Source: Natranaeroarchaeum aerophilus (GTDB taxonomy: Archaea; Halobacteriota; Halobacteria; Halobacteriales; Natronoarchaeaceae). From it: DNA of 64,000 nucleotides. The stretch's first letter is position 1. Every line of letters starts with the position of its first letter. The stretch covers positions 124,001-188,000 of the forward strand of contig NZ_JAKRVY010000002.1 of assembly GCF_023638055.1 (NCBI RefSeq), in the 5' to 3' direction. Shown here one piece after another: positions 50,026 through 64,000 of this stretch. The notes below the pieces were generated by a model. It saw only the letters and a list, made by a program, of their open reading frames with translations, made no database searches and had not been told where the DNA came from. The translations under genes were made by a program, and so were the position numbers.

Positions 50026-50095
50026 AGTTTGGGGTTGTCGCCGCGCCGACTAATCTCTGTGGCATGATACGGACTGACGAAAACTGTTATACATT

Positions 50096-50112
50096 TCCCA
50101 CTCAAAGTGGGA
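50096..50112. promoter_or_regulatory. Palindrome before the AbrB-type antitoxin gene
   Basis: TCCCACT-CAA-AGTGGGA is a perfect 7-bp dyad ending 2 nt before the ATG at 50115. TATA-like GTTATACAT lies just upstream (50085-50093). The layout fits an operator at a leaderless transcription start, as expected for autoregulated toxin-antitoxin pairs. Confidence 0.6.
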
Positions 50113-50114
50113 CT

Positions 50115-50390
50115 ATGGTGCAGGTCGACTCGAAAGGGCGGATCGTCCTTCCAAAAAAGCTCCGCGAGCGGCTCGGTATCGTGCCCGGTACGGAGGTCGA
50201 CATCCGCGAGGAGAACGGGAAAGCGGTCGTCGAACCGGAACCCGAGCCCGAACAGGTCATCGACCGAATGGAGCGACTCGTTGGAGAGACCGGTGCGGAA
50301 AGCGACCTGAAGCCGCTTGACGATGTGGCCCCGAGCGCCCGTCGGCACCGGGAGGCGGTGGACCGTGGCGCGCGTGAGGACAGCCGATGA
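50115..50390 (+). CDS. AbrB/MazE-type antitoxin
   Basis: The 91-residue protein has an N-terminal SpoVT-AbrB swapped-hairpin DNA-binding domain (MVQVDSKGRIVLPKKLRERL, GTEVDIREENGKAVVE) and a C-terminal acidic/Arg-rich tail that should bind the toxin. The ATG at 50115 follows a perfect palindrome. Its TGA overlaps the toxin start by four bases (ATGA). Classic first gene of an AbrB-VapC module. Confidence 0.9.
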   Translation: MVQVDSKGRIVLPKKLRERLGIVPGTEVDIREENGKAVVEPEPEPEQVIDRMERLVGETGAESDLKPLDDVAPSARRHREAVDRGAREDSR

Positions 50391-50854
50391 CCGACGGCGG
50401 CGGGCCGTACCTGTTCGATGTCGGTGTGATTGCGCTGGCCCACACCGACGCGCCGGTCCGCGACGCCGCGCTCTCGTACGTCCACGACGCGATCGCGGGC
50501 GAAATCGACGCCGTCGTCCCCTACCCCGCGCTGTTCGGTGCCCACGCCGTGCTGACGACCTACTACGGGCGGACGAACGCCGAGGCCGCTCGACTGCTGG
50601 AGAACTTCATGGACGCGAGGCGGATCCACTGGTGTGACCGACTGCCGGAGGCGACGGTCCGCGGCGGCTTCGACCGCGTCCGGAGTGCGAACGTCGGCGG
50701 CTGGGATGGCTACTACGCACAGGTCGCCATCGAGGAGGGTGTCAACACGGTGCTGACGATCGACGACGACTTCGAGCGGTTCGACGCGTTCGAGACGCAC
50801 GTCATTCTGTCGAGAGACGAGTTCCAGGAACTGAACGCGTTTCTCGGGGAGTGA
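50387..50854 (+). CDS. PIN-domain toxin (VapC-like)
   Basis: The 155-residue PIN-domain ribonuclease has acidic residues in FDVG, GWDGYYA and TIDDDFERFD that form the metal site. VapC proteins cleave tRNA or rRNA when free of antitoxin. The middle region is somewhat longer than in most VapCs. Translationally coupled to the antitoxin by ATGA. RNA target unknown. Confidence 0.85.
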   Translation: MTDGGGPYLFDVGVIALAHTDAPVRDAALSYVHDAIAGEIDAVVPYPALFGAHAVLTTYYGRTNAEAARLLENFMDARRIHWCDRLPEATVRGGFDRVRSANVGGWDGYYAQVAIEEGVNTVLTIDDDFERFDAFETHVILSRDEFQELNAFLGE

Positions 50855-50874
50855 TCCGTCACCAATAGTTTTGT

Positions 50875-50896
50875 GTTTGTGTATCTATACACAAAC
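50875..50896. promoter_or_regulatory. Palindrome before the VapB-like antitoxin gene
   Basis: GTTTGTGTA-TCTA-TACACAAAC is a perfect 9-bp inverted repeat ending 1 nt before the ATG at 50898. It differs in sequence from the palindrome of the first module, as expected if each antitoxin controls its own promoter. Confidence 0.65.
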
Positions 50897-50897
50897 T

Positions 50898-51176
50898 ATG
50901 GGGACGAAAACCATCGGCATTCGGGAGGACGTATACGAGCGGTTGAAGGCTCGAAAACGAGAGGACGAGAGCTTCACGGACCTCGTGGATCGCATACTGG
51001 ATGACACCACTGTCGATTGGCGTGAGGGATTCGGAACGCTCACGGAGGGAGACGCGGACGAACTCGAACGGATCGTCGAGGATAGTCGTGATCGGACAGG
51101 TGAAGGGCTGTCCGCACGCCAGCGGGAGGCTCTCGACGAACTCGCGGATGTAGAGGCAGACGATGAAACTGCTTGA
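50898..51176 (+). CDS. VapB-like antitoxin
   Basis: The 92-residue protein begins MGTKTIGIREDVYERLKARK, a ribbon-helix-helix-like N-terminus typical of short haloarchaeal antitoxins, followed by an acidic C-terminal half. It overlaps the following toxin gene by 14 bases. The palindrome before it supports autoregulation. Confidence 0.85.
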   Translation: MGTKTIGIREDVYERLKARKREDESFTDLVDRILDDTTVDWREGFGTLTEGDADELERIVEDSRDRTGEGLSARQREALDELADVEADDETA

Positions 51177-51564
51177 TACAACCTTCCTCATCCATTACTG
51201 GGCGGGACGGCAAGCGGTTGCAGAGTATCTCGAACGACACGAAGAAGAGGAGTTCGTGACGACGACACTGAACATCAAAGAAATCGCCGTCGGACGGGAG
51301 ATTCAGGGGACGCTCGATCCAGTCGAGATTCAGTCACAGTTCGAGTGGACGACGATCCTCCCGTTCCAGATGGAACATGCGGTTACTGCTGGCGAGCTAG
51401 AAGCGGAATTTCACCGGGACGAAACAGTGAATCAGGACGAAATCAATTCCCTTGCCGGAGATCTACTGATTGCCGCCGTCGCCAAAGCGGAAGGCGCGAC
51501 AGTCGTCACGCAAAATACGGACGACTTCGAGCGATTCGATGGAGTGGCTGTAGAGAGCTACTGA
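51163..51564 (+). CDS. vapC: PIN-domain toxin VapC
   Basis: The 133-residue PIN-domain ribonuclease has LLDTTFLIHYW at the start (first Asp), acidic residues around NIKEIAVG, and LAGDLLIAAVA then TQNTDDFERFDGV (last acidic cluster). It would cut RNA when not bound by its antitoxin. It is typical VapC length, with a start overlapping the antitoxin gene by 14 nt. It is a second, distinct module right after the AbrB type one. Confidence 0.9.
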   Translation: MKLLDTTFLIHYWAGRQAVAEYLERHEEEEFVTTTLNIKEIAVGREIQGTLDPVEIQSQFEWTTILPFQMEHAVTAGELEAEFHRDETVNQDEINSLAGDLLIAAVAKAEGATVVTQNTDDFERFDGVAVESY

Positions 51565-55314: not shown

Positions 55315-55998
55315 TTAGCGCCCGAACGGCCGCCAGTACAGCAGGCCGACCGTCACGACGAAGATGACGGTCGACAGGCCAAACGAGAAGCCCGAGGTCG
55401 CCGCCGTAAACGCGCTCGCGGAGCCGCCGGTGATACTCGCCACGACGGCGGCGATCAGCGGCCACGTACAGCTCACACAGGAGACCAGTCCCAGCAGGCC
55501 CGAGACCGCGGCGTTGGTCGCATCGATGATCGTCGCATAGACGAGGTAGGCAAGTGCCGCGTATCCTACGATAAACGCCGGCATCAGGGACAGTTCGATC
55601 AGCTCGCCGCCGTAGTACAGGTTCGGCACGAGACCGGGGGGCCCTGCTACGTTCACGTTGAGCCCGCCCGCAAAGGCGACGTCATAGAATGACGCCCCGG
55701 GGGCGATCAGTCCGCCGAAGAGGGCGAGCAGGCCGAAGTAGAGGGCAGCGATTACGCCTGCTTTCCGGCGCGTCCGCACGGAGGCGTCGGCAGGCGACGT
55801 GCGATAGAGCGCCCACGCGCCGACGTTCAGCCAGATCAACGGGTAGAGATGGAACGTCGTCACGCTCGTCTGGCCGAGCATGAGCAAATACACCCCGAAC
55901 AGGATCAGCTGTGTGTTGATGATGACCGCGTACAGCAGGGCCGTGTTCCTGTCGGGAAGGAAGCGATCGAGGTCGGCTCGCTGTGTGAGTGAGCTCAT
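55315..55998 (-). CDS. Membrane protein of the heme/oxidase cluster (DUF7546-like)
   Basis: This 227-residue protein has about six helices. A Cys-rich segment LVSCVSCTWPLIAAV lies in the second half, possibly a metal or redox site. It starts 4 nt after the ctaA-ctaB fusion and is surely cotranscribed with it. Homologues accompany ctaB/cox genes in haloarchaea, as far as I recall under DUF7546. A role in oxidase maturation is inferred from the operon. Confidence 0.75.
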   Translation of the reverse strand: MSSLTQRADLDRFLPDRNTALLYAVIINTQLILFGVYLLMLGQTSVTTFHLYPLIWLNVGAWALYRTSPADASVRTRRKAGVIAALYFGLLALFGGLIAPGASFYDVAFAGGLNVNVAGPPGLVPNLYYGGELIELSLMPAFIVGYAALAYLVYATIIDATNAAVSGLLGLVSCVSCTWPLIAAVVASITGGSASAFTAATSGFSFGLSTVIFVVTVGLLYWRPFGR

Positions 55999-56001
55999 CG
56001 G

Positions 56002-57441
56002 TTACAGTACGAGTGCGTCGACGACGATGGCGACGAGCAGCGCGCCGAGATAGGCGTTCGAGGCGTGGAATGCGCGAAACGCCGCTTGCTCGGTGCGTTC
56101 CCAGTGGAGGCGGACGACTGCCCAGAGGAAGACGCCGCCGAGAGCGACCGTCGTCGCGGCGTAGAGGACGCCGAGATCCGTAATCACCGAAAGCGCGCTC
56201 GCGCCCAGCAGGGTTGCTGCCAGATACCACAGGATGTGTTTTCTCGTGACCGCCTCACCGTGGACGACCGGCATCATCGGGAACCCGCCCCGGGCGTAGT
56301 CGTCCTTGTACGCCAGCGCGAGGTTGTAAAAGTGGGCGGGCGTCCACAGAAAGATCACGCCAGCGAGCGCGAGTCCGGGCAGGCCGATCCGTCCCGTCAC
56401 GGCGACCCACCCGATCATCGCGGGCAGCGCGCCGGCAGCACCGCCGATAACCGTGTTCTGGACCGTGTTCGGCTTGAGCACCAGCGTGTAGATGACGCTG
56501 TAAAACAGGATCGCAACGAGGCCGAGTGCAGCCGCGAGGACGTTCACTTGGAGGAAGACGGCGAGTGACGCGAGGGTTAGCAGGCCGCCGAAGGCCAGTG
56601 CGTTCCGGACCGGGACGAGGTGGGTTGCGACCGGTCGGTCCGAGGTTCGGGCCATCTTTTTGTCGACATCGCGTTCCAGCACGTGATTGAACGTGCCGCT
56701 CGCGCCGATCGCCAGCACACCCCCGGTAAGTGTCAACACGATGGTCCGGATGGTCAGGTCGGGGCCTGCGGCCAGCGCCATTCCTGCTGATGCCACGAGA
56801 CAGAGCAACCACATCAGACGCGGTTTCATCAGTCGGAAATAGGCGAACGCGGTCAGTTTCGCCCGGCCCAGCACGTCGTCCGGGACTGTGGGGGTCGGGA
56901 CATCGCCGACTGGCTCCGGGTCGGGATCCGGCTCAGTGGGATCGCTCTCGACGTCGAGTCCGGCCGTCTCGGCTTCGAGCGTCCACGCGAGCGCGAGCAC
57001 CAGCGTTCCGAACACGAGCATTGCGACAAGCAGATGCAGGTTCGAGAGCACGCCGGTCAGGCCAACGGTCGCGGCGGCCGCGCCGATAGCTACCTGTGTC
57101 GTGTACAGGACTACACCGAGCCCGAGCGCCGCCCGGACACGTCGTGACGCGTCCCCGATCAGAGCGATTGCGGCGGTGATCGCGACCAGTACGCCGACGA
57201 GCAGAGCGGTAACCCGGTGGCCCCACGCGATTGCGATCTGTGTATCGGAGATGGCAAACCACTCACCGCCACAGGCTGGCCAGCCCCCGCAGGCCGCTGC
57301 AGCGTCGGTGATCGCGGTCGTCGCGCCGACGACGATCAGCAGATACACACCCATCACCGTCGTGGCCAGTAGCCACGTGAACCGGTCGTGACTACCGACC
57401 AGCGGAAACCTCGATTCGCTTCGAACGGGGGGGTGTGACAC
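56002..57441 (-). CDS. ctaB: CtaA-like/CtaB fusion: heme A synthase-like plus protoheme IX farnesyltransferase
   Basis: The 479-residue protein starts with GTG. The N-terminal half (about 20-155) has four helices and a CtaA-like pattern (TAITDAAAACGGWPACGG, WGHRVTALLVG, NLHLLVAM) with potential heme-binding His residues. After an acidic linker the CtaB half (about 195-479) has the prenyltransferase motif NHVLERDVDKKMARTSDRP and a second DDYARGGFPMMP motif. CtaB farnesylates heme B to heme O, and CtaA-like domains oxidise it to heme A, so one chain may hold both steps. Divergent from coxB. Confidence 0.93.
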   Translation of the reverse strand: MSHPPVRSESRFPLVGSHDRFTWLLATTVMGVYLLIVVGATTAITDAAAACGGWPACGGEWFAISDTQIAIAWGHRVTALLVGVLVAITAAIALIGDASRRVRAALGLGVVLYTTQVAIGAAAATVGLTGVLSNLHLLVAMLVFGTLVLALAWTLEAETAGLDVESDPTEPDPDPEPVGDVPTPTVPDDVLGRAKLTAFAYFRLMKPRLMWLLCLVASAGMALAAGPDLTIRTIVLTLTGGVLAIGASGTFNHVLERDVDKKMARTSDRPVATHLVPVRNALAFGGLLTLASLAVFLQVNVLAAALGLVAILFYSVIYTLVLKPNTVQNTVIGGAAGALPAMIGWVAVTGRIGLPGLALAGVIFLWTPAHFYNLALAYKDDYARGGFPMMPVVHGEAVTRKHILWYLAATLLGASALSVITDLGVLYAATTVALGGVFLWAVVRLHWERTEQAAFRAFHASNAYLGALLVAIVVDALVL

Positions 57442-57558
57442 GTACGACTACCTCTTGTGATACCCTTCGACTGGGGATACTTATGCGGCGCGCTTCGCCC
57501 GGCCCTCGCTCGAAAAGTCAGCACATATTTAACCCCCTTTCCCTAAGAACGACCCATA
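57442..57558. promoter_or_regulatory. Divergent promoter between ctaAB and coxB
   Basis: TATA-like CATATTTAAC (57524-57533) lies about 30 nt before the coxB ATG, fitting a leaderless start. The ctaAB GTG is at 57441. This gives coordinated control of heme and oxidase genes. Confidence 0.5.
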
Positions 57559-58311
57559 ATGAAGAGAGCGCGGATCGCCCTGATCACCGTGTGGACGGGG
57601 ACGCTGTTGCTGTTGCTGGCCCAGCCAGTTTCGGCGGCGTCTACCTCCGCCGAGCTGATCAGCGACCTCAACGAACGGCTGATCATCGTCGCCCTGCCGA
57701 TCACGCTACTGGTCGAAGGGATCCTCATCTACGCCGTCCTGAAGTTCCGGAACAACGACGATCCGAAGCCGACCGAGGAGAACCGCCGTCTGGAGATCAC
57801 GTGGACGATCGCGACCGCCATCGTCCTGCTGTTCGTCGGATTCGCCGCCTTCGAGGTCATGGCGGATCCCCAGGTCAGCTCGATGGCCGACGACGAACCG
57901 CCCGAAGACGCCGTCGTCATCGAAATCGAGGGTGACGACGCCTGGCAGTGGCACTTCGAGTACCAGAACGAGTACGAGGGTGTCGAGATGACCAACGAGA
58001 TGTACATCCCCAAGGATCAGGAAGTCTACATGCAGGTGACCGCAGAGAACTGGTTGCATATGGTCCACATACCGGATCTGGGTGTGAAACAGCAGGCCCA
58101 GCCCGGCGTGGTCCACACGGTGTCGACGACGCCGACCGAGACCGGCTCCTACCAGGGCTACTGTACGGAGTACTGTGGTGCTGGCCATTCGGGAATGCTC
58201 TTCGAGACACACGTTGTCACTGAAGAGGAGTTCGACGAGACAATGGAAGAGCAACTGGCCGAAGCCGAAGAAGAGGAGAACGGCGACGAAGCGAACGGTA
58301 ACGACGAGTAA
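57559..58311 (+). CDS. coxB: Cytochrome c oxidase subunit II (CuA-bearing)
   Basis: The 250-residue subunit has a signal peptide (about 1-27), two helices (about 37-57 and 75-96) and a periplasm-side cupredoxin domain. The CuA ligands are His167 (HMVHIPDLG), Cys202, Cys206 and His210, Met213 (YCTEYCGAGHSGM); DAWQWHFEY is the electron-entry Trp segment. It receives electrons from a soluble donor and passes them to the heme-copper site of subunit I. The subunit I gene is not adjacent in this window. An acidic C-terminal tail ends it. Confidence 0.95.
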   Translation: MKRARIALITVWTGTLLLLLAQPVSAASTSAELISDLNERLIIVALPITLLVEGILIYAVLKFRNNDDPKPTEENRRLEITWTIATAIVLLFVGFAAFEVMADPQVSSMADDEPPEDAVVIEIEGDDAWQWHFEYQNEYEGVEMTNEMYIPKDQEVYMQVTAENWLHMVHIPDLGVKQQAQPGVVHTVSTTPTETGSYQGYCTEYCGAGHSGMLFETHVVTEEEFDETMEEQLAEAEEEENGDEANGNDE

Positions 58312-58344
58312 CCCGCAGGTGTTTTTCAGCTCGATCAATGCACG

Positions 58345-58362
58345 GTACAGCTACTGCTGTAC
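58345..58362. repeat. Palindrome between coxB and nosD
   Basis: GTACAGC-TACT-GCTGTAC is a perfect 7-bp dyad. It lies 34 nt after the coxB stop and 77 nt before the nosD start. A T5 run (58322-58326) precedes it. It could be a terminator hairpin or a regulator site. Confidence 0.45.
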
Positions 58363-58438
58363 GCGTTCTGACTGGCCGTTCGAGAACCATACCAGACAAC
58401 GTAAATCGGCACACCCGATACAACGACGTGTGAACCAG

Positions 58439-60370
58439 ATGCTGTACCGTGGTCGGGAGCTAACCATTGCGGTGGTGATTGTCGCTGGCCTGATCGGCAT
58501 TATTGCTGCCGGCGTGTTCGCCGCTGATGTCGAGGATTCGACGCCCTCGCCGGAGCCGTTCGACTCGGTGACAACGCTGGGTATCTCACAGGAAGACCAG
58601 CGCGACGCCGAGCACGATGACCTCTCGATTCCCCGTGTACAGGTATTTTACTCCCAGTACGAGTACGTGGTCGGCTACTACGGCGTCGAGCAGGCAGTTA
58701 GCACGCTCGACCAGCCCGAACACGACCAGCAGTTTGGCTATCCGCTTGTCGTCTACGTCTCTGACTACGGGGGGACAACGGTCGAGCTTACGGATGAAGG
58801 GTATCTGACCGCCGAAACGTCGACCGGCTGGGTCGACGCGAGCGACGCGTACTTTGTCGTCGATAGCGAGGCCCGGACGCCGGCTGGCGAAACTGTCGTC
58901 CCGTTCGGTTCGGAATCCGCGGCCACGGTGTTCGTCGACGAGCACGGAGGCGAGATCGTCGACTGGCCCGAGCTCCGAACGCGCTCGTTCGACGTCGACA
59001 GTGCCGCTGTCGTGCGCGACCGTGTCGACGAGCAGCGATCACAGGCCGACGAGCAAGTCGATGCTGTCGAGCCATTGCTCGACCGCGACCCGGTACGAAC
59101 CGTCGAGGACGACGAGACTGTACAGGACGCGATCGACGACGCGCCGGCGGGATCGACAGTCGAGATCCCAGCCGGAACCTACGAGGAGACCCTTCGGATC
59201 GACGAGCCCCTCACGCTCCGGGGCGAGGACGCGACGATCCGCGGTGACGGCGAGGGGAACGGTATCGAAGTCCGGGCCGACGACGTGGCCATCGACGGCG
59301 TTCATGTCGACGGAGTTGGCAATCAGACTCGCGATCCCGATGCGGCGACAGAAGACGGCGACGAGGAAGACTGGGACGCCAACATCGAATCGGGCTACGG
59401 CCACGGTGATGCCGGAATCCACGTGGTCGACGCGACCGGCGTCTACGTCACGAACGTCTCGATCGAGACCCCGGCAAACGGCGTCTTGCTCCGTGACGCA
59501 CCCGATGCGGTCGTCGACGACAGCACGGTCGACGGGAGCGAGGAGTGGCGCGACGGGTTCATGGGCGTCATGTCGATGCGCTCGCCCGGCGTGGTCCAGA
59601 ACTCCACGTTCGACGGTGGCCGCGACGGCGTCTACCTCCATCGATCGCCCGAGACAGTGATCCGGGACAACGAATTCTACGACAACCGCTTTGGCGTCCA
59701 TCTGATGCATACATCGGATTCGGTGATCGCGGACAACCACGCTCGCGGGCAGGAACTCGCCGGACTGACGATTATGACGAACCCGACACACAACGCGATT
59801 GTCGGCAACGATGTCCGGGAGGCGACGCATGGGATCCTCCCCGCCGGGTCCCAAAGCTACGTCGCCGACAACGTCGTCGCGGACAACGAGTATGGCATCA
59901 CGACAAGCGCGGACCAGTCGCTGTACGAGGCAAACGTCATCTACGACAACGACGTTGGTCTCCGCACCGGCTCGATCCTCGCCTCGAACCGGGTCGTGCA
60001 CAACGATATCGTCGCGAACGACCAGCACGTCGACGCGAACATCGGTCCGTTGCGGATCTGGACCTTCGACGGCCAGGGCAACTACTGGGACGGGGCATAC
60101 GGTACGGAATCGGGGGGCGTACTGGATCGCTCGTACTCCCCAACAGATCCCGTACAGGGACAGCTCCACCGGACTGATGGCGCACTCACGCTCGCGGAAT
60201 CCCCCGCCGCGCGCGGATTGAGCGAGCTTCGCGGCACCACGCCCGGCCTGCGCAGTGGAAGCGTCGTCGACACCGCGCCGCTTGCGGAGCCAGTGAACCC
60301 TGACAGACTCGCCGAACTCGACGACGAGCAACGGTCGGAGCTCGGTGAGGATGGAGGTGACACGTCATGA
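58439..60370 (+). CDS. nosD: NosD-like copper protein with N-terminal NosL-like domain
   Basis: This 643-residue protein has an N-terminal helix (about 9-29). A region (about 50-180) reads YPLVVYVSDYGGT, YFVVDSEARTPAGE and ATVFVDEHGGEI, which aligns with part of the NosL protein encoded at 61905. A right-handed beta-helix follows (about 220-530) with NosD/CASH repeats (GNGIEVRADDVAIDGVHVDG, YDNRFGVHLMHTSDSVIADN). NosD works with an ABC transporter and NosL in copper-site assembly of N2O reductase. nosF overlaps its end by 4 nt. nosZ is not in the window. Confidence 0.88.
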   Translation: MLYRGRELTIAVVIVAGLIGIIAAGVFAADVEDSTPSPEPFDSVTTLGISQEDQRDAEHDDLSIPRVQVFYSQYEYVVGYYGVEQAVSTLDQPEHDQQFGYPLVVYVSDYGGTTVELTDEGYLTAETSTGWVDASDAYFVVDSEARTPAGETVVPFGSESAATVFVDEHGGEIVDWPELRTRSFDVDSAAVVRDRVDEQRSQADEQVDAVEPLLDRDPVRTVEDDETVQDAIDDAPAGSTVEIPAGTYEETLRIDEPLTLRGEDATIRGDGEGNGIEVRADDVAIDGVHVDGVGNQTRDPDAATEDGDEEDWDANIESGYGHGDAGIHVVDATGVYVTNVSIETPANGVLLRDAPDAVVDDSTVDGSEEWRDGFMGVMSMRSPGVVQNSTFDGGRDGVYLHRSPETVIRDNEFYDNRFGVHLMHTSDSVIADNHARGQELAGLTIMTNPTHNAIVGNDVREATHGILPAGSQSYVADNVVADNEYGITTSADQSLYEANVIYDNDVGLRTGSILASNRVVHNDIVANDQHVDANIGPLRIWTFDGQGNYWDGAYGTESGGVLDRSYSPTDPVQGQLHRTDGALTLAESPAARGLSELRGTTPGLRSGSVVDTAPLAEPVNPDRLAELDDEQRSELGEDGGDTS

Positions 60371-61092
60371 CAACCGAGGCGATCCTCCGTGCCGATGCTG
60401 TCAGCCACTCCTTCGATGAGGTCGAGGTGATCGACGATATTTCGGTCGACGTCGAACCGGGGGAGGTGATGGCGATCGTCGGACCGAACGGCTCGGGAAA
60501 GACGACGCTCTTGCGCGTGCTGGCTGGACTGTTGCCGTCGACCGATGGGACCGTCGAGTATCGGGGGCCGGACCGCGAGCGCGAGATCGGGTACCTCCCC
60601 CAGCGCCCAACCTTTCGACCGGGGTTTACAGTTCGCGAGACGATCGATTTCTACCGCGCGCTCGTCGACGAGGAAGGGACGGATCGGCTCTCACAGGTCG
60701 GTCTGGCCGACGCTGCGGACCGACGTGTCGAGGCCCTTTCCGGCGGGATGACGCGGTTGCTCGGAATCGCACAGGCGACGGTCGGCGATCCACCGGTGGT
60801 CGTGCTCGACGAACCGGGGAGTGGTCTCGATCCCGGGATGCGTCGTCGGACGTTCGAGGTGACGAACGACCTCGCGGACGACGGGACGGCGGTGCTCGTG
60901 AGTTCACACGACCTGTCGCTGGTCGAGCGGACGGCGGATCGTGTACTGGTGCTCGACCGCGGAACCGTTGTAGCGGACGGCTCGCCCGACGAACTACTGG
61001 GGACTCACGGAATGGATTCGCTCTGGGACGTGTTCGGCGAGGCTACCACGGGATCGACTGATGCCGTCGACGTCGCGGGGGTGACCCAATGA
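60367..61092 (+). CDS. nosF: NosF-like ABC transporter ATP-binding protein
   Basis: The 241-residue ATPase has Walker A GPNGSGKTT, Q-loop YLPQRPTF, signature LSGGM, Walker B VVVLDEP and the switch His (SSHD). It powers the NosY permease in the NosDFY complex. The start overlaps the nosD stop by four bases and its stop overlaps nosY by four. Confidence 0.93.
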   Translation: MTTEAILRADAVSHSFDEVEVIDDISVDVEPGEVMAIVGPNGSGKTTLLRVLAGLLPSTDGTVEYRGPDREREIGYLPQRPTFRPGFTVRETIDFYRALVDEEGTDRLSQVGLADAADRRVEALSGGMTRLLGIAQATVGDPPVVVLDEPGSGLDPGMRRRTFEVTNDLADDGTAVLVSSHDLSLVERTADRVLVLDRGTVVADGSPDELLGTHGMDSLWDVFGEATTGSTDAVDVAGVTQ

Positions 61093-61904
61093 GCGGTCGC
61101 CGTGCGGCGCGGGTCATCTTCGGTCGCGAACTCGCGAGCATTGTCCGCACGCGTAGCTATCTCCTGCTGTTCGTCGGCGTTTCCGCGGTGATTCTCGGGA
61201 TCGCAACCGTCGGTGGCGGGACCGGTGCGGGCTACGTTCCCACCGCAGTCGACCTGCTCTTGCCGCTCGAACTGCTCGTCCCCGCGGTCGCGTTCGCAGT
61301 CGGCTACCGGTCAATCGCGGACGACGTCCAGCGCGATGAGCTATCGGTGCTTTCCACCTACCCCGTTCCGGACTGGGCGTACGTCGGCGGCGTCTACGCC
61401 GGTCGGGCAGTAACCGTCGTGGGAATCCTCGGCATCCCATTGCTCGTCGTCGGCATCCTCGTCTCACTCTCTGCTGGCCCGGATACGACCATCGTCGCGA
61501 CACATCGCGGGATCGACTCGCCGGTCCTGTTCGGCCGGTTCGTGCTTCTCACGCTCGCGTACGGGTTGATGGTGCTGGCCGTCGTACTTGCCCTTTCTGC
61601 GCTGGCGAGCAGTCGGAAAGCAGCGTTAACGCTCGCCGTCGTCGGCCTCGGTGGACTGGTCGTTGGCCTCGACCTGCTCGTTCTCCGTGGCGTCGGGACG
61701 GGATGGGTGACTGGCGATACGCTGCTGACAGCAATCGCGGCGTCGCCCACGAGCGCGTATCGTGGGCTGGTGTTCGAGACGGTGCTGTACGTCGCGTTCG
61801 AGGCAGAAACCGGTTACGCGTCTCCCGTTGCGAGCGCGTTTAGCCTGCTAGCATGGACCTTGATCGGCCTGAGTATCACCGCGCTCGGCGTCTCTCGCCG
61901 GTGA
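61089..61904 (+). CDS. nosY: NosY-like ABC transporter permease
   Basis: The 271-residue protein has about six helices and the ABC-2 type permease organisation (YRSIADDVQRDELSVLSTYP coupling loop, LSAGPDTT). It completes the NosDFY set. The stop codon abuts that of convergent nosL (TGATCA). Confidence 0.88.
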   Translation: MSGRRAARVIFGRELASIVRTRSYLLLFVGVSAVILGIATVGGGTGAGYVPTAVDLLLPLELLVPAVAFAVGYRSIADDVQRDELSVLSTYPVPDWAYVGGVYAGRAVTVVGILGIPLLVVGILVSLSAGPDTTIVATHRGIDSPVLFGRFVLLTLAYGLMVLAVVLALSALASSRKAALTLAVVGLGGLVVGLDLLVLRGVGTGWVTGDTLLTAIAASPTSAYRGLVFETVLYVAFEAETGYASPVASAFSLLAWTLIGLSITALGVSRR

Positions 61905-62468
61905 TCAGTTCCCCATCGCGTCGAGTAGCTCACGGTTGATTTCTCCGTGGGTAACGACGTCGCCACCGTGCTCGTCCGCGAAGGTCGTGGCATCGCCATC
62001 GTCCTCAAACGGGATCAGATCGGGGCCCATCGCGCCGTGGGCATCCGATCCTGCGACAAAAGTAATCCCTGTTTCCTCGGCGTAGTCGTCCGCGTCCAGA
62101 TGCGCGGAGATGAACGGCTGCTCCTCGTCCCCCGTGAGGCTGTAATCGACGCCACTGTAATCGGTGAGATACGTGACGATCGGTGTTTCTCCGGCATCTT
62201 CGGCATCGAACCGGTATCGGTAGGTACAGGTGCCGCTGCAGAAGTGCGCTGGACCCTCCCGATCGTCCGGGTAGTCCTCGAAGAATATCTGCCCAGTCGG
62301 ACCGGGGTGTTCCTCGATCACCATGCCACACTGATCACAGGACTGACCGTCGTCGAGGGCGATCGGCTCCGGTGCATCGTCATCACCGAGACAGCCGGCG
62401 AGCGCGCCGATCGCTACCCCGCCTGCAGCTGCCAGAATACGCCGTCTACTGAGGTTGCTCTCGTACAT
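61905..62468 (-). CDS. nosL: NosL copper-chaperone lipoprotein
   Basis: The 187-residue product opens MYESNLSRRRILAAAGGVA, a Tat signal, with lipobox LAGC. The NosL metal-binding motif is CDQCGM (about 44-49), with further Cys in HFCSGTCTY and Met (AMGPDLIPFED). NosL binds Cu(I) and delivers it for metal-site assembly. It is convergent with nosY and copA lies next on the same strand. The shorter start at 62468 is used because the signal begins there. Confidence 0.93.
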   Translation of the reverse strand: MYESNLSRRRILAAAGGVAIGALAGCLGDDDAPEPIALDDGQSCDQCGMVIEEHPGPTGQIFFEDYPDDREGPAHFCSGTCTYRYRFDAEDAGETPIVTYLTDYSGVDYSLTGDEEQPFISAHLDADDYAEETGITFVAGSDAHGAMGPDLIPFEDDGDATTFADEHGGDVVTHGEINRELLDAMGN

Positions 62469-62525
62469 GGGAAGACGCAGGTGCTGGACGGTATTAGGGA
62501 GTCTGGTACGAGCGCCGAAACCCAC

Positions 62526-64000
62526 CTACAGACTCCGCGAAGAGTTGAGGACGACCAGAAAGCTCGATAGCGCCATCGCGGCGGCAGCCAACAGCGGGTT
62601 CAGATATCCGGTGATGGCAAGTGGAATCGCGATGGCGTTGTAGACGAACGCCCAGCCGAGATTCTGTCTGATCCGACGGTTCGTCCGCGCCGAGAGGTCG
62701 AACACGTCCGGGACGCCGTCGAGATTCCCGCTGGCGATTACGGCGTCGGCGGCGTCCGTCGCGAGTTCGGTCCCGTTACCGAGCGCGATCCCGACGTCCG
62801 CCGCGGCCAGCGCCGGTGCGTCGTTGCTCCCGTCGCCGACCATTGCCGTCTTGCCCTGCGTCCGGAGCCGTTTTACGGTCTCGGCTTTGGCCTCGGGCGG
62901 GACGCCGGCGAACACGTCATCGACCGCCGGGGCGGCCCGGAACCGCTCGGCTGCTGCCCCCTCATCGCCGGTGATAACCACGACGCGTCGTTCCTCACCG
63001 ACCCGTGACAGGACGTCTTCCCAGTTCGGTCGTGGCGTATCGCCGACCACCACGACGCCCTCGGCCCGCCCGTTCCAGCCGACGACGATGGGTACGGTCC
63101 CGCTGTCACGCGCTTCGGCGACCGTCGACTCGAAGCGGTCGGGGATCTCCCAGTCGCGCTCTGCGAACAACAGTGGATGACCGACAATGATCTGGTCGCC
63201 GTCGAGACGCCCCGTAACGCCGCGGGCGTGACGTTGGAAGTTGTCGACGCTCGGAAGGGTATCGGGTGCGCGCTCGTTCACGTGGTTTACGATCGCCCGG
63301 GCGACCGGGTGTTCGGTCAGACGCTCGAGCGCGGCCGCACGGGCGAGCACGGCTTCGGTATCGTCGGCATCGACGCGCTCGACAGTCATTTCGGCAGTCG
63401 TCAGGGTTCCAGTCTTGTCGAAGGCGACGATGTCGACGTCCGGCGCATCCTCGAAGATCGTCTCCGCGGCGATTACGATCCCGCGTTTTGCGGCCGTCTG
63501 CACGCCGGACGCGACAGCAAGCGGCGTGGCCAGTCCAAGCGCACAGGGACAGGAGACGATCAACACGGTGAGCGCGGTTAGCATCGCCGGCGTGAACGCC
63601 GATCCGGTGGCAAGTAACCAGAGGGCGGTCACCGACGACAGCAGGATGACTAGCGGGACGAACACGATCGCGAGCCGATCCGCGAGCCGCTGGACACCGG
63701 GGCGCGTGCTCTGGATCGACCACAGCAGTTCGACGATCCGGTCGAGGGTGCTCGCGGCCTCCTCGCCGACTTCCACGACGAGTGGCTGGTCGGTCACCAC
63801 CGTCCCGCCGAGCACCGGATCACCCGGCCCCTTCTCGACGGGCACGGATTCGCCGGTGATCAGCGCCTCGTCGACCGCAGCGCTGCCGTCAAGAACGGTC
63901 CCGTCGAGCGGCACCCGTTCGCCGGGCCTGACGAGCAGTTCCTCGCCGGCATCAACCGTGTCGAGTGGGACGCGCTCGCCGCTTTCGTTCAGCCGGGCGT
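62526..64000 (-). CDS. copA: Copper-translocating P1B-type ATPase, C-terminal part, cut by window edge
   Basis: About 491 residues of a P-type ATPase are visible; the N-terminus lies beyond the right edge. Motifs in order are the actuator TGES, the CPC metal site in IVSCPCALGLATP, phosphorylation DKTGTLT, the HP motif (EHPVARAI) and the hinge GDGSNDAPALAAADVG. The CPC motif marks copper or silver transport (P1B-1). It exports Cu(I), and next to the cox/nos genes it may supply the outside face with copper. A reading starting at 63914 is an internal GTG, not the true start. Confidence 0.92.
   Translation of the reverse strand, partial: ARLNESGERVPLDTVDAGEELLVRPGERVPLDGTVLDGSAAVDEALITGESVPVEKGPGDPVLGGTVVTDQPLVVEVGEEAASTLDRIVELLWSIQSTRPGVQRLADRLAIVFVPLVILLSSVTALWLLATGSAFTPAMLTALTVLIVSCPCALGLATPLAVASGVQTAAKRGIVIAAETIFEDAPDVDIVAFDKTGTLTTAEMTVERVDADDTEAVLARAAALERLTEHPVARAIVNHVNERAPDTLPSVDNFQRHARGVTGRLDGDQIIVGHPLLFAERDWEIPDRFESTVAEARDSGTVPIVVGWNGRAEGVVVVGDTPRPNWEDVLSRVGEERRVVVITGDEGAAAERFRAAPAVDDVFAGVPPEAKAETVKRLRTQGKTAMVGDGSNDAPALAAADVGIALGNGTELATDAADAVIASGNLDGVPDVFDLSARTNRRIRQNLGWAFVYNAIAIPLAITGYLNPLLAAAAMALSSFLVVLNSSRSL

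Follow-up and report, generated by a model that had tools for sequence, protein, structure and literature searches.

A NosDFYL lineage of haloarchaea separate from nosZ tracks the ba3-type oxidase and may insert copper into its CuA site

Introduction

N2O reductase (NosZ) is known to have a machinery dedicated to its CuZ site, made up of NosDFY and NosL. Here, we analyzed a nosD-nosF-nosY-nosL set located in a 64,000-nucleotide stretch of Natranaeroarchaeum aerophilus DNA, hereafter called the window (contig NZ_JAKRVY010000002.1, positions 124,001 to 188,000; G000:C2:124001-188000 in our numbering). The corresponding genome (3.29 Mb, 32 contigs) is 98% complete. The set belongs to a haloarchaeal NosDFYL lineage that tracks the ba3-type oxidase, and we propose that it may insert copper into the CuA site of this enzyme.

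Maturation genes without a linked nosZ have been described before. According to the genome paper of Haloferax mediterranei, which cites Zumft and Kroneck, Haloferax volcanii carries nosFY without nosZ (PMC9240420). NosD of H. volcanii (HVO_0892) is expressed and glycosylated, and its annotation gives copper transport as its probable role (PMC8241124). In addition, nosDYF sets unassociated with nosZ occur in Bacillus azotoformans (PMC3475470). These sets resemble the one studied here in their lack of a linked nosZ, H. volcanii being moreover a haloarchaeon, but the passages cited give the fact itself or a copper-transporter label, with no link to ba3 oxidase or to Sco and no description of a separate lineage. 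NosDFY without nosZ is therefore already known; no earlier account of a separate lineage, or of a nosDFY link to ba3 or Sco, was found in the full-text literature, subscription journals not being covered.

Results

A NosDFYL set in a genome without nosZ

At the right end of the window, the fused heme synthase gene ctaAB (minus strand) is followed by coxB and nosD-nosF-nosY (plus strand), then by the convergent genes nosL and copA (minus strand). The nosD gene (58439-60370, +) encodes a 643-residue protein. It is overlapped by 4 bases by nosF (60367-61092, +), encoding an ATP-binding cassette (ABC) ATPase, which is in turn overlapped by 4 bases by nosY (61089-61904, +), encoding a putative ABC permease. 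The copper chaperone gene nosL (61905-62525, -) and the P1B copper ATPase gene copA (62526-64000, -) complete the set. The window edge cuts copA, which extends 800 bases further, to G000:C2:188799, the full protein having 757 residues. Open reading frames and domains bear out the gene content read in the initial annotation (heme A/O synthase fusion, coxB, nosDFY, nosL and copA); for nosD, they also revealed an N-terminal NosL-like domain that had been overlooked.

It had been noted that nosZ was not visible in the window but could lie beyond its right edge, past copA. No nosZ was found in the window, nor in the 20 kb that adjoin its right edge. A search of the whole genome with the NosZ models TIGR04246 and NF052460 (L-NosZ) also detected no NosZ, the only matches being the CuA domains of the oxidase subunits II, CoxB and CbaB, far below the cut-offs. 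Because nosZ is absent, the Nos set must have another role in this genome, which supports the variant use of the Nos machinery suggested at the outset.

Two separate lineages of NosD

A protein search for NosD was performed over 194 haloarchaeal genomes. Strong matches (E 1e-98 or better) were obtained in 127 of them, while the matches in another 15 were all weak (E 1e-27 or worse), with none between. When 393 genomes sampled from the phylum were searched, the 54 matches (54/54) all belonged to the window's own order. Neighborhoods were compared for 82 of the strong loci, named class B and distributed over 39 genera, and for 17 loci of 14 genera, named class A, which were selected for nosZ and are thus all (17/17) near that gene by choice. 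For neighbor families, the comparison used a composition-filtered gene set. In the NosD tree, from which L059 and L074 are absent owing to miscalled genes, class A and class B form separate clades with a support of 100. None of the 82 class B loci has nosZ within 10 kb. At the genome level, class B is found together with class A and nosZ in 48 genomes, and without nosZ in 79. Judged from the tree, class B is a NosDFYL lineage deeply separate from nosZ-linked NosD. As a side observation, five genomes have a second class B NosD gene in tandem with the first or near it (G029, L058; G037, L092; G049, L149; G149, L069; G052, L091), hinting at specialized copies.

Class B follows the ba3-type oxidase

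In order to compare distributions, carriers of nosZ (62 genomes), CbaA (138), CoxB (135), nirK (101) and Sco (145) were counted in the same 194 genomes. For CoxB, the stricter threshold of 1e-27 was used, as 1e-15 takes in cross-matches with CbaB. All the tests are plain or genus-stratified, short of full phylogenetic correction. CbaA, the ba3-type subunit I, is present in 116 of the 127 class B genomes as compared to 22 of the 67 genomes that lack class B (odds ratio 21.6, p 2e-17). Counted per genus, the proportions are 35/38 and 6/27 (p 6e-9), and the association persists within genera (odds ratio 11.5, chi2 8.8). Genomes having ba3 without CoxB nearly all carry class B (49/53), as against 9/50 of those having CoxB without ba3, and the overall association of class B with CoxB is negative (odds ratio 0.20, p 3e-5). 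Within class B, CbaA is found in 40/41 genomes of subclade B1, to which the window belongs, and in 16/21 genomes of subclade B2. The within-genus test showed no association of class B with nosZ (odds ratio 0.92) and no clear link with nirK (odds ratio 1.6, chi2 0.35) or with Sco. For nirK, of which no copy was found in the window's genome, a weak link is seen at the genus level (p 0.005). Overall, class B tracks the ba3 oxidase, much more tightly than nirK, CoxB or nosZ.

The genes surrounding class B NosD, to a distance of about 10 kb, were then counted at the 82 loci. NosL is encoded near 71 loci, Sco near 26 (18 genera), a DsbD_2-like protein near 24 and CbaA near 8 (7 genera). The Sco value was obtained from 30 loci by removing chance hits, including those to the antisense strand of nosL in L000 and L053. 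By comparison, chance alone would place a two-copy gene of a 3.5-Mb genome within 10 kb of about 1 locus per 100. No Sco gene was found near the class A loci (0/17). The Sco proteins near class B retain CxxxC and the distal His. Class B both co-occurs and co-locates with the oxidase, as looked for in an assembly factor. The window's genome has two Sco genes, of which at least the stronger one is far from the locus.

Other families recur in the same neighborhoods. At class B loci, a helix-turn-helix (HTH) regulator of HVO_0163 type is encoded in 28 cases (e.g. L128:10570-11112) and a small membrane protein of the DUF7471 family in 22 (e.g. L072:12758-13111); neither is found near nosZ clusters. 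The DsbD_2/SafE-like protein, in the window flank and at the 24 class B loci, sits beside copA or Sco, and would possibly maintain in reduced form the cysteines with which Sco or NosL bind copper.

Conserved features of the class B proteins

Class B NosD consists of an N-terminal membrane anchor, a NosL-like domain and a right-handed beta-helix. The NosL-like domain of the window protein (PF05573, residues 65-180, E 8e-17) is carried by 82/82 class B loci. Membership of the NosD family is indicated by PF05048 (E 9e-30, above the gathering score), while the NCBI subfamily model TIGR04247 gave 211 bits, below its cut-off of 300. Similarity to the solved NosDFY complex 7o0y is far above chance (E 3e-18), with the H-x-M motif aligned. 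Over 78 class B proteins, the helix keeps a triad H421-x-M423...M446; the same residue order, H247-x-M249...M271, is found in nosZ-linked class A NosD. Within the fused NosL part of these 78 proteins, no Cys, Met or His is conserved, and CxxC occurs in only one (1/78). The fused domain is probably a fixed docking half that has lost its copper cysteines. An AlphaFold model of NosD built from two sequences had a mean pLDDT of 50 and was left out of the fold search.

NosF (PF00005, E 5e-30) is intact, with Walker A (GPNGSGKT), signature (LSGG) and Walker B motifs all present. No match of NosY was found in Pfam or in the PDB, and it shows marginal similarity to a few class A NosY (about 42-44 bits). 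Its name rests on its position in the operon and on a NosY-type neighbor family that is conserved in 76 of the 82 class B loci. NosL (PF05573, E 7e-39) carries a twin-arginine lipobox signal and keeps the copper-site motif C63-x-x-C66-x-M68; it matches NosL structures of the PDB far above chance (7osf, E 1e-11). CopA (TIGR01511, 445 bits, above cut-off) begins with a Cys-rich domain of the CcoI kind followed by an HMA domain. The match to PF12156 is weak (E 3e-4, below the gathering score); such an N-terminus would mark the window copA as being of the assembly kind.

A ba3 oxidase block apparently set into the aa3 locus

Past copA and on the same strand are found the gene of a DsbD_2/SafE-like membrane protein (L007:12901-13704) and that of a 70-residue protein. 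Divergent from this operon, the ba3-type oxidase genes cbaB-cbaA start 2.2 kb past the edge. The complete ba3 cluster (L007:14181-18794) encodes, in this order, CbaB (166 residues), CbaA (570 residues), a 64-residue protein, a DUF7546 protein, an 85-residue protein and a COX3 protein. CbaA is clearly related to subunit I of the Thermus ba3 oxidase (1ehk, E 2e-123) and CbaB is a short subunit II with a CuA motif, as expected for a ba3-type (B family) oxidase. The genome contains two COX1 genes, cbaA and the aa3 gene coxA, the latter located 128 kb to the right.

The other subunit II gene, coxB (57559-58311, +; TIGR02866, 177 bits, above cut-off), belongs to an aa3-type oxidase and also has a CuA motif; the CuA ligands are intact in both CoxB and CbaB. 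In four genomes of the same family (G178, G053, G128 and G031), DUF7546-ctaAB and the divergent pair coxB-coxC are followed by the gene of a DUF7410 protein. In these relatives, coxB directly adjoins coxC, with no nos genes between them, and the nos block is located elsewhere. In the window's genome, the nosDFYL-copA-cbaBA block splits coxB from coxC. The same block adjoins coxB in G033, of the same genus, and among the same-family genomes compared the interruption is confined to this genus. At the far end of the ba3 cluster, the COX3 gene is accompanied by that of a DUF7410 protein, both being members of the coxB locus in the relatives. The ba3 oxidase genes and the nos set beside them thus look like one block set into the aa3 locus. 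Since same-family relatives have coxB-coxC contiguous and their nos block elsewhere, the adjacency of the nos genes to coxB is local.

The ctaAB fusion (56002-57441, -; TIGR01473, 295 bits, above cut-off; PF02628, above gathering score), encoding heme A synthase (CtaA) and heme O synthase (CtaB), neighbors coxB at all the coxB loci examined and is part of the ancestral coxB locus. The CtaA model matched only at its positions 3-171 of 322, so that the CtaA part has about half the length of the model. Used as a query, the fusion is matched along its length at all these loci; it is therefore usual in haloarchaea. Next to ctaAB, a DUF7546 membrane protein is encoded (55315-55998, -; PF24412, E 7e-73). 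With the one found after cbaA (L007:16591-17265), there are two DUF7546 proteins, one per oxidase set. Most of the loci examined have a member of this family alongside ctaAB-coxB, and it may act either as a subunit of the oxidase or in its assembly. Further to the left, translations of two successive small gene pairs (50064-50854 and 50871-51564) have the appearance of AbrB- or antitoxin-plus-PIN modules (VapBC-like).

Discussion

The data make it rather probable that the class B NosDFYL set is a copper-insertion apparatus whose client is a copper site of the ba3-type oxidase instead of N2O reductase. Cu(I) exported by the CcoI-like CopA would be collected by the lipoprotein NosL at its CxxCxM site. 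NosL would then dock onto NosD, and ATP hydrolysis by NosF-NosY would power the transfer of copper via the H-x-M...M residues in the helix of NosD. The recipient would most likely be the CuA site of CbaB in the adjacent ba3 oxidase, the apparatus working together with Sco. The preference for CuA over CuB falls slightly short of even odds. The complete picture, a nosZ-independent lineage with a cysteine-less NosL-NosD fusion driving ATP-dependent copper insertion into ba3 CuA, is offered as a tentative proposal.

Loading of an oxidase CuA site by NosDFYL had been suggested in the initial annotation with the neighboring CoxB as partner. The genomic company of class B (oxidases, Sco, CcoI-like copA) indeed indicates copper loading of a CuA-type oxidase, but the choice of partner was not supported. 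That the main client is the aa3-type CoxB agrees with the adjacency of the nos set and coxB in the window and in G033, with their distance of about 9 kb in genus g32, with the intact CuA ligands of CoxB and with the nine class B genomes that have CoxB and no CbaA. It is nevertheless improbable, given the uninterrupted coxB-coxC pairs of the four relatives and the negative association of class B with CoxB, including its low frequency in CoxB-only genomes. As regards other haloarchaea, nosZ-free sets proved widespread, as the initial annotation led one to look for, while their link with coxB is negative. A relic of a denitrification cluster that lost nosZ and left nosDFYL behind would account for the homology of every component to nos genes. 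This is hardly credible for a separate deep clade that coexists with class A and nosZ in 48 genomes and, in 79 nosZ-free ones, has retained its conserved residues, with motifs intact.

Some observations weigh against the ba3 CuA proposal itself. CbaA occurs without class B in 22 genomes and class B without CbaA in 11, so that neither strictly needs the other; cbaA is not adjacent at most class B loci; shared ancestry may partly account for the whole-sample association, and the within-genus test draws on few genera. Moreover, the CuA of oxidases is otherwise assembled by Sco and PCuAC, with no ABC transporter. The main objection comes from Paracoccus, whose NosL is required for the CuZ, not the CuA, of NosZ (PMC6530538; review PMC7558416), and for this reason the CuB of CbaA remains a serious alternative. 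Another copper site of the ba3 system as client, either this CuB or a halocyanin electron donor, would equally explain the co-occurrence with ba3 and would better fit what is known of NosL; we nonetheless hold it to be rather unlikely, since, among the further copper genes in class B neighborhoods, the most frequent is that of Sco, whose classical client is CuA. It is also unlikely that class B ensures general extracytoplasmic copper supply or copper resistance, its link to ba3 merely reflecting a higher copper need. The frequency of copA, of the HTH regulator family and of DsbD_2-like proteins nearby, the weak genus-level nirK link and the several copies in some genomes speak for such a role. 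However, the link to ba3 is far tighter than those to nirK, CoxB and nosZ and persists within genera, and the CcoI-like N-terminus of the window CopA, a weak match, suggests the assembly kind.

If insertion of copper into the ba3 oxidase is confirmed, the Nos machine would be broader than thought, building respiratory copper sites more generally, and its oxidase use would possibly be as old as that for N2O reductase. The nosD and nosL genes would be unusable as markers of N2O reduction in archaeal genomes. A clear test of copper supply to the ba3 oxidase becomes possible in organisms in which genes can be removed, such as H. volcanii.

Three known systems can be compared with the class B set. 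The CcoGHIS/CcoI route to cbb3 oxidase likewise uses a P1B ATPase having a Cys-rich N-terminus plus HMA, with an adjacent DsbD_2/SafE-like protein, and we take the copA/DsbD_2 arrangement seen here to be similar to that of cco clusters. In contrast, the oxidase here is ba3, not cbb3, and NosDFYL comes in addition. The Sco/PCuAC route shares with our proposal its product, the CuA site, and Sco is encoded beside many class B loci; but this route has no ABC transporter, and NosDFYL would contribute an ATP-driven step. The closest system, NosDFYL of P. stutzeri (7o0y, 7osf, 7znq), has the same four kinds of components, NosY being a putative one here, and the same operon logic, with the H-x-M...M helix of NosD, the CxxCxM of NosL and a canonical ABC ATPase. 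Unlike it, class B goes without NosZ, its NosD is fused to a cysteine-less NosL-like domain, and it forms a separate clade associated with the ba3 oxidase and with Sco.

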